Made by a program: the position numbers and the translations under genes. Below, in pieces: positions 351-12,419 of a stretch of 17,450 bases of DNA. The stretch comes from Elusimicrobia bacterium HGW-Elusimicrobia-2 (GTDB lineage Bacteria; CG03), in the NCBI GenBank assembly GCA_002841685.1, contig PHAM01000038.1:1-17450 (forward strand). Reading direction: 5' to 3'. Position 1 is the first letter of the stretch. Each line of letters begins with the position of its first letter. The notes under the pieces were generated by a model, which was not told the DNA's origin, ran no database searches, and saw only the letters and a list, made by a program, of their open reading frames with translations.

Positions 351-475
351 CACTAGTGGGGTCAGGTCTTGACATTAGACATTTAAGAGTGAAAAATGGG
401 AAAATGGGGACTAGTGGAAAATGCGCGAAAATGGGGACGGTTCTGGTTTTCGTGCAAAAATGGGGACGGTTCCCA
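351..475. repeat. Cluster of short REP-like repeats between two same-strand genes
   Basis: The non-coding gap holds two families of short repeats. One is ACTAGTGGGGTCAGG followed by TCTTGACATTAGAC (352-380), with ACTAGTGG repeated at 410-417. The other is AAAATGGGGACGGTTC at 428-443, repeated as AAAATGGGGACGGTTCC at 457-473; a shorter AAAATGGGGAC lies at 401-411. The last copy ends directly at the stop codon of the BatA-type gene (476-478). The same core occurs as an inverted pair at 9518-9574. I recall such GGGGACGGTTC and GGGGTCAGGTCTTGAC strings from genomes carrying Y1-type (REP-associated) transposases, but no transposase gene is in this window, so the mobile origin is inferred. No ordinary terminator was seen here. 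Confidence 0.65.
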
Positions 476-3961: not shown

Positions 3962-3990
3962 TTTAACCTCTCTTTACCCCGCCTATTTTA

Positions 3991-4009
3991 TTAAGGACGT
4001 CCCCTTTTT
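3991..4009. repeat. Possible REP-like variant with GGACGTCC palindrome
   Basis: The short gap between the GAF-PAS gene and the TPR gene contains, on the minus strand, AAAAAGGGGACGTCCTTAA. It has a perfect 8-bp palindrome (3995-4002) and shares the GGGGACG core with the repeats at 403-475 and 9518-9574. It could be a diverged copy or chance. Confidence 0.35.
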
Positions 4010-8052: not shown

Positions 8053-8072
8053 GACAGCTTTTCAAAACTGTC
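8053..8072 (-). promoter_or_regulatory. Hairpin spanning the barrel stop codon, just before exbB
   Basis: The minus-strand RNA GACAGUUUUGAAAAGCUGUC is a near-perfect palindrome: five outer pairs, one G-U, then A-U pairs. The barrel stop codon UGA (8062-8064) sits at its apex. The exbB ribosome site begins a few bases later. It could affect termination-reinitiation or mRNA processing. There is no U-run, so it is not an intrinsic terminator. Confidence 0.4.
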
Positions 8073-9585
8073 CCCATCTGATCTCAACTCCCGCCGAAAA
8101 AAAAGCGGTGTTTCGCCATTCATAAGGTGACGCCGGTGCCGTAGCCGGTGTCAGAAAAACTTTGTCCCCTAAAACATTATCCGCAGCAAGGAACAGGGTT
8201 GTTCCCGACGGGATATCGTAACATATTTTTACCAGGCCGTTTACAAAACTCTCCGTCCACGGGCCTTTTGAAACCCTGTTGACAAGAGCGGTAATGCCTA
8301 TCCTTCCCTGTTTATACTCGGAAAATACGGCCGCGGAGCTGCGCGGAGCCGGCAGGAAATCAGGAGACGCCGTGTAGCTAAAGCCCACGCCCGATGAAAA
8401 TGGCCCTGATAATAAAGAAAGTTCGGCGCCCAGCTCATAGCGTTTGTAACGCGAGTTTTCCAGAGAACCCGGCGAAGGAGAGCTCTCGTCGGCATAAAAA
8501 AAATTGTGCGTGTCGCGGCGGCGGGCTGTGAGTTTCAGTCCCGCGGGATAGAGCGGCAGAACATATTCCGCCCTGAGATTCTTCCATCCCTCGTGCGCGG
8601 CTCCTGGAAAAGCGCGCAAAAGCGAACCCCGGCGCGCGAAGATGTCCTCTATCCGCGGCGCGCTGTTATCGGGATCGAGGCCCGCCGTCAGGGAACCTCC
8701 GAGCGCCGGAAAAGAGACAAGGAGTTTCCCCGCCGTATACGCCGAGCCCGCCCATTTGATAAATTCAACTCCGGCGTCAAGTTCAAAGCCGTCAAATTTA
8801 TGCGCGAGAGAACAGTCGGACGAGAGAAAATCAAACTTCTTCGCGCCATCAACCCAGTCCCAGTCTTCGCGCGAAAGTCCGACGCGCATGCTCATAGAAG
8901 AATCTCCCATATATTGATCGGCGGATGCCCCTAAACGGATGGATGAAAATTCCCCGTCGCGGCCGGTGACATAGAAACCGGCGGGATATCTCCCTGACAT
9001 AAGGACTTTCTCCGCCGAAAAAGAAATGAAAGAATTTTCAGTCTGCGAGTAAACCTCCACGGGAGCGCCGAAAAGTGTTTCGCCTATATCCTGCCCAGCG
9101 GAGGCGGGCAATTCAAAGACCCGGCCGTAAAAATACGGCAGTGTGGAAAAAGACCACAGGCCTGTTCTCTTATAAAAGAGATCAGCGCCGTATAAAAATC
9201 GCCGGCGGCCTTCCTCCCCGGAGAATCCCGTGTCCGCTCCGGCGATAAAACCGCTCTCATCATGTTCCGAGCGGTTCAAAAAAGCGGCCTTGGCCCCGGC
9301 GGAAGCGGTGGATCCGGCGTCTATCAGCGCAATGAATGATTTGCCCGGGCCGGCCTCTTTGACGAAACCGCTTTTTAAAAATTTTTCGGAAAGGAATCTC
9401 TCTTTATCATATCTCGGAAGATCCGCGGCCGTAATTCCTCCGAGACCATAAAGGGAGAGATCGTCTCCTATAACGTTCATATCCGGTATCCGCACCGAGC
9501 CTTCGGCAAAAACAATATTGGGGACGGTTCCTATTAACGCGGATAAAGCAAATTGTATTAAGAACCGTCCCCAAGGCATTCTCAT
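8062..9585 (-). CDS. Outer-membrane beta-barrel, TonB-receptor-like without a visible plug
   Basis: The 507-residue protein has a signal peptide (residues 1-27, cleavage predicted after VFA). A short segment (VRIPDMNVIGDDLSLYGLGG) follows, and then alternating amphipathic strands to the end. The C-terminus, FLAADNVLGDKVFLTPATAP...FFSAGVEIRWGQF, resembles the last strands of TonB-dependent receptors and ends in Phe, as outer-membrane barrels do. No canonical plug domain of about 150 residues is seen, although IPDMNVIGDD could be a remnant of a TonB-box-like segment. It lies immediately upstream of exbB-exbD-tonB, which supports a TonB-linked role. The ATG overlaps the preceding stop as ATGA, and a second ATG two codons on is possible. 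The signal peptide is encoded by a REP-like hairpin. The substrate is unknown. Confidence 0.75.
   Translation of the reverse strand: MRMPWGRFLIQFALSALIGTVPNIVFAEGSVRIPDMNVIGDDLSLYGLGGITAADLPRYDKERFLSEKFLKSGFVKEAGPGKSFIALIDAGSTASAGAKAAFLNRSEHDESGFIAGADTGFSGEEGRRRFLYGADLFYKRTGLWSFSTLPYFYGRVFELPASAGQDIGETLFGAPVEVYSQTENSFISFSAEKVLMSGRYPAGFYVTGRDGEFSSIRLGASADQYMGDSSMSMRVGLSREDWDWVDGAKKFDFLSSDCSLAHKFDGFELDAGVEFIKWAGSAYTAGKLLVSFPALGGSLTAGLDPDNSAPRIEDIFARRGSLLRAFPGAAHEGWKNLRAEYVLPLYPAGLKLTARRRDTHNFFYADESSPSPGSLENSRYKRYELGAELSLLSGPFSSGVGFSYTASPDFLPAPRSSAAVFSEYKQGRIGITALVNRVSKGPWTESFVNGLVKICYDIPSGTTLFLAADNVLGDKVFLTPATAPASPYEWRNTAFFSAGVEIRWGQF
9518..9574. repeat. REP-like inverted repeat encoding the signal peptide of the barrel gene
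   Basis: TTGGGGACGGTTC (9518-9530) and its exact reverse complement GAACCGTCCCCAA (9562-9574) form a 13-bp inverted repeat. In the minus-strand RNA it extends to 16 pairs, with one U-G, around a 25-base loop. The core GGGGACGGTTC is the same as in the intergenic copies at 433-443 and 461-472. The arms encode residues 4-8 (PWGRF) and 19-23 (GTVPN), and the loop encodes most of the hydrophobic core (LIQFALSALI). Confidence 0.85.
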
Positions 9586-12419
9586 TTCAATTTTTCAAGT
9601 TCTTCCGAGGCCTTGGCCGCCAGGGGAGAATCCGGCCAGTTTTCCAGTATCCTGCCAAAGGCTTTCTCAGCTTCGGATTTTTTTCCCTGCTTTATCCGGA
9701 CAGAGCCTATGCCGTAATAACCCTCGGCGACGATGTCCGGAAATTCAGGGTAAATAAACACCGCTTTTGAATACTCCAGCCACGCCTCATCATACTGCTT
9801 CATACTGAAAAAAGAGGACGCTATCAGTATTTGCGCCCGGGCGGCATCGCTATCGTGAAGGTTGATTGTCACCTTGCGGAGCGCCTCCGCCGCCTCTTTG
9901 TAATTTCCGCTCTCGTAAAGTTTTTTGCCTTCGTCAAAATATATTCTCGCCGAGGGGCCGGACGCGGGATAATCCCTCGTTAAAACGCTCTTCAGCCCGG
10001 AAGCCCGCGCGGAAAGGCCCTGTTCGGTAAGCGCTTTGCGCGCTATTTCAAGGGCGCCGGGAGCAAAAGCCGATGACGGGAAATCATCCCTGAATTTCAA
10101 AGCCTCATCAGCGGCGGAAGCATAATTCTTTTCGTTAAAAAAAGTTTCGCATATCCTGAACCTCGCCTCTTCAAGGTAGGGGCTCTTTTTCCCCGCCAGT
10201 TCCCCGTAAAATTGTCTGGCGAGAGCGTAATTCTCCGCGCGCGATGCGCTGCGGGCGGCGCGGTACAGGGAATCCACCGCGAGCGGGGATTTGGGATATC
10301 CTGAATATATCCTGCCGTAAATCTCCCCTGATGAAACATAATCGTTGCGCTCCTCGTATATTTCGCCAAGAGTGAAAAGCGCGTCGGGGGCGATCTCGGA
10401 AGACGGGTACTCCCTGTCTATGCGGCGGATCAGTTCGGATGCGCCCTCCAGCCTGCCTTCCTTTCTGTCCACCAGGGCCATGCTGTAAAGCGCCTGCGGT
10501 ATTTTAGGCGACGACGGAAACTTATCCAGAAGTTCGGCGTAACAGGACCTGGCTTCGGCGCCCCGTGCCGCGTTGTAATAGGCGTCGCCTATCCGCAAAA
10601 GCACATCCTCGGAAGGTTGTATTTCATAATGCCGTTTCCAGAATTCAATAGAAGCTGTCCAGTCCTTGAGGATGAAAGCCGACCAGCCCGCGTAAAGATA
10701 AGCGTCGGCTATTCTGGGGCTTGCGGGGTACTTGGCCGCGAAATCCATCAGATGCGAGCGGGCCGAAGCCCAGTTTTTTTCTTTATAGAAACTCACACCT
10801 ACCGAAAAAGCGGCGTCTTCCGCGGCGGGCGAGTCCGGATATGAATCCACCGTTTCCCTGTAAGATTCGCGGGCCTTATCGAATTTTTTCCAGTTAAGAT
10901 ACGCGTGCCCTGAAGCGGCCAGAGCATCAGCTATAAGAGACGGGGCTGACACTTTGCCGTAATAGCGTACCGCCTCCGAAAATCTGCCGAGCTTAACGCA
11001 GGCGTTGCCCAATTCAAAAGCCAGCTCATCCTTTTCCATATCTGTGCCTTTGACAGATAGCCCCTTTTCCAATTCAATGGCCGCGGCGCTGTGATCCCCT
11101 GCGAGCGCAAGGCTTTTGCCCAGGCCCAGATAAGCACGGGACAGAAAGCCCGAGGCCTCGCCGCGTTTTATCACTTCTCTGAAGACGGAGGCCGCTTCAC
11201 TGAAACGGGACGCTTTTAAGAGAGACGCGCCCTGCCAGTAATGGGCATCTCCGGCGAGTTCATCGCCCGGGAAAGCGGAAAGAAGCCGGGCATAGGCATC
11301 CGAGGCCGCGTCGTAATCCCGCTCAAAAAAATAACAATGGCCTATGAGGAACTGGGCTTTCGGAAAATATGCTGTTTTGGAATGCTTGAGGATCAGCTCC
11401 GCGAAAGCCTTTCTTCCACGCAGATAATCCTGAAGATGCGTATAACTCCAGCCCAGCGAAAAAAGCGACTTTTCCGCCCATTCACTGCCGGGATGCTTAT
11501 CCGCGCAGGACCTGTAATAAACAGCCGCCTGCGCGAAACTTTTTTTCGCGTAGAAAGCCTGCCCTGTCAGATACAGGGCCTCGGCCGCTGAAGCGCCTGA
11601 CGCGCGCCTGATCGGTTCCAGTATTTTTTCCGCTTCATCAAACTTTTTATCCTTTATCAGTATCTCGGCTTTTTTGAGATTAGCTTTCGCCGCCCAGGGG
11701 CTATCCTTAAAGCCGGCGGCGATGTTGTCAAACCGCTTCAGGGCAGACGCCATATCTGATGAGTGGATAAAAGAAAGGCCTTCGTAGAACAGGCTCTCCG
11801 CTTTTATTTTTTTATCTGAAACCCCTGCGAAAAGACCGGCGGCTTTGTCATAATTGCCCGTTTTAAAATAAGCGTATCCCGCCGAATACATGGCGTATTC
11901 CCTGAAGACTGATTTGGGATATTTCTCAAGTATTTTTCTGTAATATTTCCCGCTCTCATCATATTTCTTCAGTTCAGATAAAGATTGAGCGAGATAAAAA
12001 AGAGCGTCTTCATTTTCATCATATAAATTGATGAATTTAGCGTAAATATCCGCGGCATCGCCGTATCTCTTCATATGATAGGAGCAATCGCCCATGCGCG
12101 AAAGAGACCTCTCCTTTACTTCGCGTGCAAAGGAAGAAAATGTTTTTTCGAACTCTTTATAGGCGAGAGGGAAATTTTTCATCCGGAACAGGCATTCCGC
12201 CTGCATAAAAGCAGCCTCCTCGCCGATACCGGGATAAGATGAACCTGCTATTTCAAGGAACTGTTTTCTCGCCATCTCATACATCCCGTCCCTGAAAAGG
12301 CCGTTGGCGAACTGCAGCTTATTCAGCGTTTCTATGTCATTGCCGCTGATAAGTCCCGTCAACCCGGACAACATTACCGTAACCGCCGCGATCTGCACAA
12401 ACCGTTTATTTCTCACCAT
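9582..12419 (-). CDS. Large exported TPR-repeat protein
   Basis: The 945-residue protein has an N-terminal signal sequence (FVQIAAVTVMLSGLTGLISG). No lipobox cysteine is present, so a soluble periplasmic protein is expected. The remainder is tandem helical repeats of about 34-40 residues with the TPR pattern (for example GYAYFKTGNYDKAAGLFAGV, GDCSYHMKRYGDAADIYAKF and GSVRIKQGKKSEAEKAFGRI). Many units include the PxS-type linker seen in YbgF/BamD-like TPRs (EKYPKSVF, DKFPSSPK). About two dozen units would fit. It probably acts as a long periplasmic scaffold. It follows the CNBD gene after 4 bases and overlaps the barrel gene as ATGA, so I infer that it supports assembly or operation of the barrel. 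The partner is unknown. Confidence 0.88.
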   Translation of the reverse strand: MVRNKRFVQIAAVTVMLSGLTGLISGNDIETLNKLQFANGLFRDGMYEMARKQFLEIAGSSYPGIGEEAAFMQAECLFRMKNFPLAYKEFEKTFSSFAREVKERSLSRMGDCSYHMKRYGDAADIYAKFINLYDENEDALFYLAQSLSELKKYDESGKYYRKILEKYPKSVFREYAMYSAGYAYFKTGNYDKAAGLFAGVSDKKIKAESLFYEGLSFIHSSDMASALKRFDNIAAGFKDSPWAAKANLKKAEILIKDKKFDEAEKILEPIRRASGASAAEALYLTGQAFYAKKSFAQAAVYYRSCADKHPGSEWAEKSLFSLGWSYTHLQDYLRGRKAFAELILKHSKTAYFPKAQFLIGHCYFFERDYDAASDAYARLLSAFPGDELAGDAHYWQGASLLKASRFSEAASVFREVIKRGEASGFLSRAYLGLGKSLALAGDHSAAAIELEKGLSVKGTDMEKDELAFELGNACVKLGRFSEAVRYYGKVSAPSLIADALAASGHAYLNWKKFDKARESYRETVDSYPDSPAAEDAAFSVGVSFYKEKNWASARSHLMDFAAKYPASPRIADAYLYAGWSAFILKDWTASIEFWKRHYEIQPSEDVLLRIGDAYYNAARGAEARSCYAELLDKFPSSPKIPQALYSMALVDRKEGRLEGASELIRRIDREYPSSEIAPDALFTLGEIYEERNDYVSSGEIYGRIYSGYPKSPLAVDSLYRAARSASRAENYALARQFYGELAGKKSPYLEEARFRICETFFNEKNYASAADEALKFRDDFPSSAFAPGALEIARKALTEQGLSARASGLKSVLTRDYPASGPSARIYFDEGKKLYESGNYKEAAEALRKVTINLHDSDAARAQILIASSFFSMKQYDEAWLEYSKAVFIYPEFPDIVAEGYYGIGSVRIKQGKKSEAEKAFGRILENWPDSPLAAKASEELEKLK

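Follow-up and report, generated by a model that had tools for sequence, protein, structure and literature searches.

We consider it very probable that a solo hairpin of the RAYT type was inserted at the junction between a TPR protein gene and the gene for a predicted outer-membrane barrel protein, that it is translated as the signal peptide of the barrel protein, and that this process is recurrent in the lineage. The stretch of DNA analysed, here called the window, is 17,450 nucleotides long and is contig C78 of the source Elusimicrobiota draft genome (G000; 1.78 Mb). It contains the following features:

357..384, plus strand: family-B terminal repeat TGGGGTCAGGTCTTGACATTAGACATTT, identical in its first 26 nt to the terminal sequences of the RAYT unit at G000:C27
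430..475, plus strand: two intergenic family-A arms (430-446 and 459-475), with a truncated copy (AATGGGGACTAG) just before them at about 403
3990..4004, plus strand: intergenic family-D terminal repeat ATTAAGGACGTCCCC
8062..9585, minus strand: predicted outer-membrane barrel gene, 507 aa, without a match in Pfam and NCBIfam searches
9505..9585, minus strand: predicted signal peptide MRMPWGRFLIQFALSALIGTVPNIVFA, judged by eye and a simple hydrophobicity rule, not by SignalP
9518..9530, minus strand: right arm of the family-A palindrome, GAACCGTCCCCAA on the coding strand, encoding GTVPN
9531..9561, minus strand: loop of the palindrome, encoding the hydrophobic core LIQFALSALI
9562..9574, minus strand: left arm (gene orientation) of the family-A palindrome, TTGGGGACGGTTC on the coding strand, encoding PWGRF
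9582..12419, minus strand: TPR protein gene, the stop codon (TGA) of which overlaps the barrel start

The inverted repeat at 9518-9530/9562-9574 (plus-strand letters TTGGGGACGGTTC and GAACCGTCCCCAA, respectively) is 13 bp long and perfect, and when the arms are extended to 9518-9536/9556-9574 (19 nt each) they are 89% complementary. In RNA, the palindrome folds into a 16-pair stem with -28.7 kcal/mol and a z of -3.0; both the 13 bp and the 16 pairs had been claimed in the earlier note made from the sequence alone. The window contains no other perfect 13-bp inverted repeat with a spacer of at most 60 nt, and none was found in 40 dinucleotide shuffles. The palindrome spans codons 4-23 of the minus-strand ORF 9585-8062, and the ORF translation bears out the coding of the arms and the hydrophobic loop as described in that note. 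In this translation, the product begins with MRMPWGRFLIQFALSALIGTVPNIVFA followed by EGSVRIPDMNV, and the predicted signal MRMPWGR-FLIQFALSALIG-TVPNIVFA has a basic n-region and a hydrophobic core (both by a simple rule) as well as an AxA-type cleavage site (by eye). The only in-frame starts ahead of the mature part, M1 and M3, are both upstream of the palindrome; thus, if the barrel protein is exported via a signal peptide, the palindrome must form part of it.

The outer-membrane barrel identity of the product is a prediction. The protein ends in RWGQF, and ExbB/TonB genes neighbour its gene. An AlphaFold model based on five sequences, which at a mean pLDDT of 33 is not trustworthy, shows a single N-terminal helix (6-17) and, after it, about 20 strands. 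Elsewhere in the window, an oxidoreductase-like ORF contains three in-frame 24-bp tandem copies at 161-232 (CCGGCGGACTTTCAGCCGCGCCTA, the third degenerate), giving a repeated AESPPVG.

The palindrome belongs to a dispersed family, family A, with the consensus AATGGGGACGGTTCCTATTGC..n..GCAATAGGAACCGTCCCCATT, which occurs as singles, inverted pairs and direct pairs. In the genome-wide motif search that had been proposed, the 11-mer core GGGGACGGTTC had 24 exact copies in the 1.78 Mb of G000, compared with 0.89 expected from base composition and none for the reversed pattern; 17-mers with at most three mismatches gave 40 copies vs 2 in the control. The intergenic repeats at 403-475, which had been reported to share the core, were recovered as the copies at 430-446 and 459-475 and the truncated copy at about 403. 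Five of the six frames of the consensus, read by hand, are open, and the GTVPI frame is readable from either strand. In a 15-mer survey of 386 genomes, the repeat was abundant only in five genomes (G000-G004) of two sister genera, g1 and g2, and was absent from the other two genera of the same family; two genomes from other phyla had three stray matches. The genomes are all draft MAGs, gene starts are from a home-made caller, signal peptides were called throughout by a simple rule for the n- and h-regions with cleavage sites judged by eye, and the genome-wide statistics for G000 are from pattern searches and a 317-kb sample; several genes were searched at once with a chimeric protein query.

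G000-G004 have genes for Y1_Tnp (PF01797) proteins and G005 and G006 have none; the repeat shows the same split, and this co-occurrence suggests that the copies were mobilised by RAYT. In G004, from the sister genus, the RAYT gene at C25 is bounded by 24-nt inverted family-A ends. A-type ends were not found around the two RAYT genes of G000, which carry families B and C; a complete RAYT with A-type ends was seen in the sister genus only, not in G000 itself. Other RAYTs are bounded by related ends, i.e. families B (GGGGTCAGGTCTTGACATTAGACAT), C (GGGGACGGAGGTAATT), D (GGGGACGTCCTTAAT) and E (GGGGACGGTGCTTGACATTGTGACAATAGC). The best NCBIfam match of four tested RAYTs was 'REP-associated tyrosine transposase', just or well below the cut-off, and the B-type RAYT carries a DnaA-type C-terminal HTH. 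Altogether, the sequence comparisons indicate that palindrome family A represents the terminal inverted repeats of RAYT (IS200-like Y1) transposases.

The published TIR-flanked RAYTs ('TIRYT/TIRtron', Di Nocera et al. 2013, PMC3733652; TnpAREP subclass 2.1, PMC6006769) resemble those found here: they are Y1 HUH transposase genes enclosed by inverted terminal repeats that start with GGGG, and solo and dimer copies of the repeats are dispersed. The motif given for the repeats, GGGGWSAS (GGGG[AT][CG]A[CG]), is matched by family B (GGGGTCAG). The first bases of families A, C and E are GGGGACGG, which deviates from the motif at one position, and those of family D are GGGGACGT. Because the RAYTs bounded by family-A or related ends match TIR-flanked RAYTs, the barrel palindrome is best read as a solo hairpin of a TIR-flanked RAYT element. 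Similar to REPINs (Bertels and Rainey 2011, PMC3116915), i.e. REP doublets forming hairpins and described in extragenic space, the repeats here are inverted doublets of short repeats with a short loop and a RAYT link and occur as singlets and doublets; unlike REPINs, copies are kept in frame within genes, and no GTAG tetranucleotide tag is shared among copies, which side by side show AATGGGGACGGTTCC..GGAACCGTCCCCATT. As a separate observation on family B, in three species the RAYT unit seen at G000:C27 (L025; also L195 and L196) has an ABC transporter gene on one side and a cca-like gene on the other; in G000, it gives the tail VGSGLDIRHNKY to the former and the start MSRPDPIV to the latter.

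Positions were scanned with an exact 12-mer in the five genomes G000-G004. Fifty-two of the 76 copies are intergenic, although intergenic DNA makes up about 8.5% of the 317-kb G000 sample. Among the 24 coding copies, nine fall in hydrophobic N-terminal segments, which make up 3.1% of the sample, and one of the nine, in G003 trpB, is certainly no signal peptide; seven are elsewhere in the first 35 codons, six in the last 15 codons, and two are mid-gene in a single gene. With orthologues merged by hand, the coding copies fall into 16 gene families, six of which have them in signal or anchor sequences (P ~ 9e-6 against all coding sequence), and in all six the repeat is read in the hydrophobic GTVP frame:

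barrel: family-A capture in the signal peptide
C68: repeat-bearing signal peptide MKKTAIGIVTAIIGTVPIIICQAPSPISA
L107: repeat-bearing signal/anchor sequence MKRIRTVPILLVPILLLLLGTVPNRAYA
L133/L139: MKxxNLIKxLLKRIGTVPILSLLLFSVPVFA
L140: repeat-bearing signal peptide MKNIKRFTARLTRKFITLLGTVPNTPVFA
L159, lipoprotein-like: ..AAIGTVPIVIIFLVFGC

Among N-terminal captures, signal peptides were not significantly in excess (6/10 vs 37% background, P = 0.13). The bias of the copies is toward gene junctions and N-termini, not toward signal peptides specifically. Thus, the proposal that a dispersed repeat was captured as an export signal holds in that the repeat supplies signal codons, and does so recurrently, but not in the sense of a special preference for signal peptides. 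When a few mismatches are allowed, SpoIID-like and multi-pass membrane proteins join the list, and families C, D and E supply further captures; in C68, family A (IGTVPI) and family E (CQAPSP) together form a mosaic signal peptide. L133 (G001) and L139 (G003) are different, very large surface-type proteins with near-identical repeat-bearing signal peptides, which suggests spread of the leader within the protein family.

Two alternatives would do without capture of the repeat as coding sequence. It is very unlikely that insertions are purely extragenic and that the coding overlaps are annotation artefacts: most copies are indeed intergenic, and some N-terminal overlaps, the QueC-like one among them, may reflect mis-called starts; however, a barrel start downstream of the palindrome would leave no signal peptide, the repeat lies within the predicted hydrophobic signal segment in C68, L140, L107, L133, L139 and L159, and a 36-nt insertion that distinguishes G003 from G000 in the L140 family preserves the frame. 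Convergence, by which the residue preferences of signal peptides yield GTVP codons, has a negligible probability. While signal peptides accept the residues G, T, V, P and I, the copies are identical over exactly 12-13 nt including synonymous positions, have inverted partner arms, and identical DNA is also found between genes, in other frames and on both strands. Convergence is excluded by this DNA-level identity.

In G000, family-A copies also flank or precede genes in other ways. At C48:4514-4575 (L036), the palindrome forms a short upstream ORF, MGTVPIATIVTVPILIDKA*, the stop codon of which overlaps the ATG of the next gene; at C58:4550-4685 (L039/L040), a gene that is tRNA-like by sequence, not by ARAGORN, lies between two direct copies of the arm.

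Barrel orthologues were found only within the same family, with identities of 93% in G003, 73% in G002, 58% in G001 and 27% in G006, which is from another genus. Traces of the repeat at the barrel start are present in all four genus members (G000-G003). In G001, the right arm is exact (LGTVPNPIAYA) and the left arm decayed; in G002, the right arm is kept as GTCCCCAAT, about 57 nt are inserted between the two halves of the left arm, and pairing is through new sequence; and in G003 the repeat, including the right arm, is degenerate and extra copies are present. By contrast, the signal peptide of the G006 orthologue is unrelated, and nothing of the repeat is seen in it. Therefore, the insertion probably predates the genus, i.e. 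it would have occurred in the genus ancestor. The right arm is identical in G000 and G001 although the barrel proteins are only 58% identical, and it is possible that this exact arm stems from re-insertion or arm homogenisation rather than from one old insertion. The earlier note had named orthologues in distant relatives with the same signal-peptide residues but no palindrome as evidence against its proposal; the outcome is mixed, since GTVPN in G001 comes with an exact right arm, while the left arm is decayed there and the G006 signal is repeat-free.

The same comparison bears on the suggestion that the hairpin enforces translational coupling, i.e. that it is a regulatory RNA and a ribosome terminating on the TPR gene melts the stem, coupling barrel translation to that of the TPR gene. 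As had been described, the TGA of the TPR gene overlaps the barrel ATG (aATGA), and a stable stem begins about 12 nt into the barrel gene; moreover, G002 also has a strong stem, formed by another sequence (TTGGGGACGCCTGC/GCAGGCGTCCCCAA). The ATGA overlap is kept in all four genus members; however, in G003 and G001 the long stem is disrupted, and the G002 stem is a rebuilt one of different sequence that could come from arm-templated mutation without selection. The palindrome is also found in many contexts without a start/stop overlap. Conservation of the overlap but not of the hairpin argues against a coupling role, which we regard as improbable, and the lack of conservation of the stem rules out the hairpin as a conserved regulator.

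Orthologous pairs with and without the element were observed directly. In the L140 family, G003 has a 36-nt in-frame insertion with the core inside the signal peptide, G000 is without it, and the flanks are closely similar. In C68, the signal segment differs almost wholly between G000, where it is repeat-bearing, and G003, where it is repeat-free, and again the flanks are closely similar. The TPR gene beside the barrel gene has the signal MVRNKRFVQIAAVTVMLSGLTGLISG|NDIETL in G000 and a nearly identical one in G003, and MRRQIIGIFRIVRKALSTVPLFVALISG|NDIETL, with the same mature start, in G002. In G002, a RAYT unit of about 725 nt lies between the TPR gene and its upstream gene, the TPR ATG is 13 nt before the RAYT stop, and the right terminal repeat of the unit encodes STVPL in the TPR signal. 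Judged from these sequences, the signal peptide of the G002 TPR protein was replaced by the right end of a RAYT unit. The earlier note had seen in such capture a simple route to new secreted proteins. This part was not supported: in the pairs examined, the element-free relative already has a signal peptide of its own, so that the pairs speak for remodelling or swapping of export signals and do not prove the birth of secreted proteins.

Presence and absence were also observed outside signal peptides. The linker of a large protein carries the repeat in G000 and G002 only, and the TrpB N-terminus carries it in three genomes, not in G002. In G000 (C90:7210-7302; L055/L056), the palindrome spans the trpF/trpB junction, with the left arm forming the TrpF C-terminus and the right arm the TrpB N-terminus, and both arms read LGTVPNG. 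Identity of trpB to G000 over the query is 96% in G001 and 80% in G003, against the species order, which suggests recombination or mixed bins. The signature loop of a MobA/GlmU-like nucleotidyltransferase has extra residues in G000 and G003 only; there, a family-A copy (G000:C33:282-410, L034; G003:C101, L082) adds KNSNRNRPHY, and relatives without the copy are shorter at the loop (RMKTPKALL, RMKESGRGIKALL). Upstream of this gene, family B is found at the same junction in G001 and G003.

We propose that a solo, non-autonomous hairpin of the RAYT-type (Y1/IS200-like, 'TIRYT') family was inserted at the TPR/barrel junction and, because the barrel start codon is just upstream of the element, is translated as signal peptide: PWGRF, from the left arm, closes the n-region, the loop gives the hydrophobic core, and GTVPN, from the right arm, precedes the cleavage site VFA. 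Elements would land mainly between genes in tight operons and build up at operon junctions. Overlaps with gene starts would survive if the frame is open and hydrophobic-compatible (GTVPI/N, from either strand) and the residues are acceptable; signal peptides would tolerate GTVPI/N because only charge and hydrophobicity, plus a small-residue cleavage site, are needed. Complete RAYT units would act alike via their right end. What the element is, how it is dispersed, where it lies, in which frame it is read and how orthologues differ in it were all observed in the sequences. We infer that signal peptides derived from the element work in export, and their retention probably reflects tolerance rather than benefit, i.e. 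neutrality. A stronger reading, which we regard as rather unlikely, is that RAYT right ends are portable signal-peptide cassettes, in which a start codon at or near the RAYT stop and a basic stretch would be followed by a terminal repeat with a hydrophobic open frame (MIRKLGIIGKLITSVPFF, MRRQIIGIFRIVRKALSTVPLF, MRKLRTSPFSMLLIAL). If so, insertion upstream of a secreted gene would swap its signal peptide and keep its expression, and the element would be tolerated or favoured at such sites.

Insertion and translation of the hairpin, as proposed, have partial precedents. Rickettsia palindromic elements (RPE; PMC10969869, PMC2229807) are about 150 bp long and are found in metabolic and other conserved genes. 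Similar to them, the element here is a palindromic mobile element translated in frame inside unrelated proteins (24 coding copies, 16 families), a likeness by description that is confined to in-frame translation and implies no membership in the RPE families; unlike them, it is about 20-60 nt long, is concentrated at gene ends and signal peptides, and has an identified transposase with matching ends. For YPAL/RU-2, the predicted signal peptide of Yersinia YPO1552 is partly made of a MITE (Delihas 2007, PMC2759123); that case is one small putative protein and another MITE family, whereas here several envelope genes, several repeat families and before/after pairs are involved. The available sections of PMC3733652 report no signal-peptide capture and treat most N-terminal REP overlaps as possible misannotation. 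Among titles and abstract openings, a literature search for RAYT in Elusimicrobiota apparently gave nothing on RAYT elements, and one for the motif string gave nothing relevant. Within the literature searched, recurrence over several envelope genes and repeat families, the involvement of whole RAYT units and the direct orthologous comparisons appear to be new.

Signal peptides diverge too fast to align, and their origin and turnover are therefore hard to trace. Here, the source DNA is still recognisable, copies can be set against empty orthologous sites and several mobile families are involved; thus, the effect of mobile elements on export signals becomes directly testable. RAYT-linked repeats are usually regarded as extragenic, and the copies described here indicate that they can persist as coding sequence. 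Among these few uncultured Elusimicrobiota, the addressing of proteins for export thus appears to be subject to remodelling by a genomic parasite.
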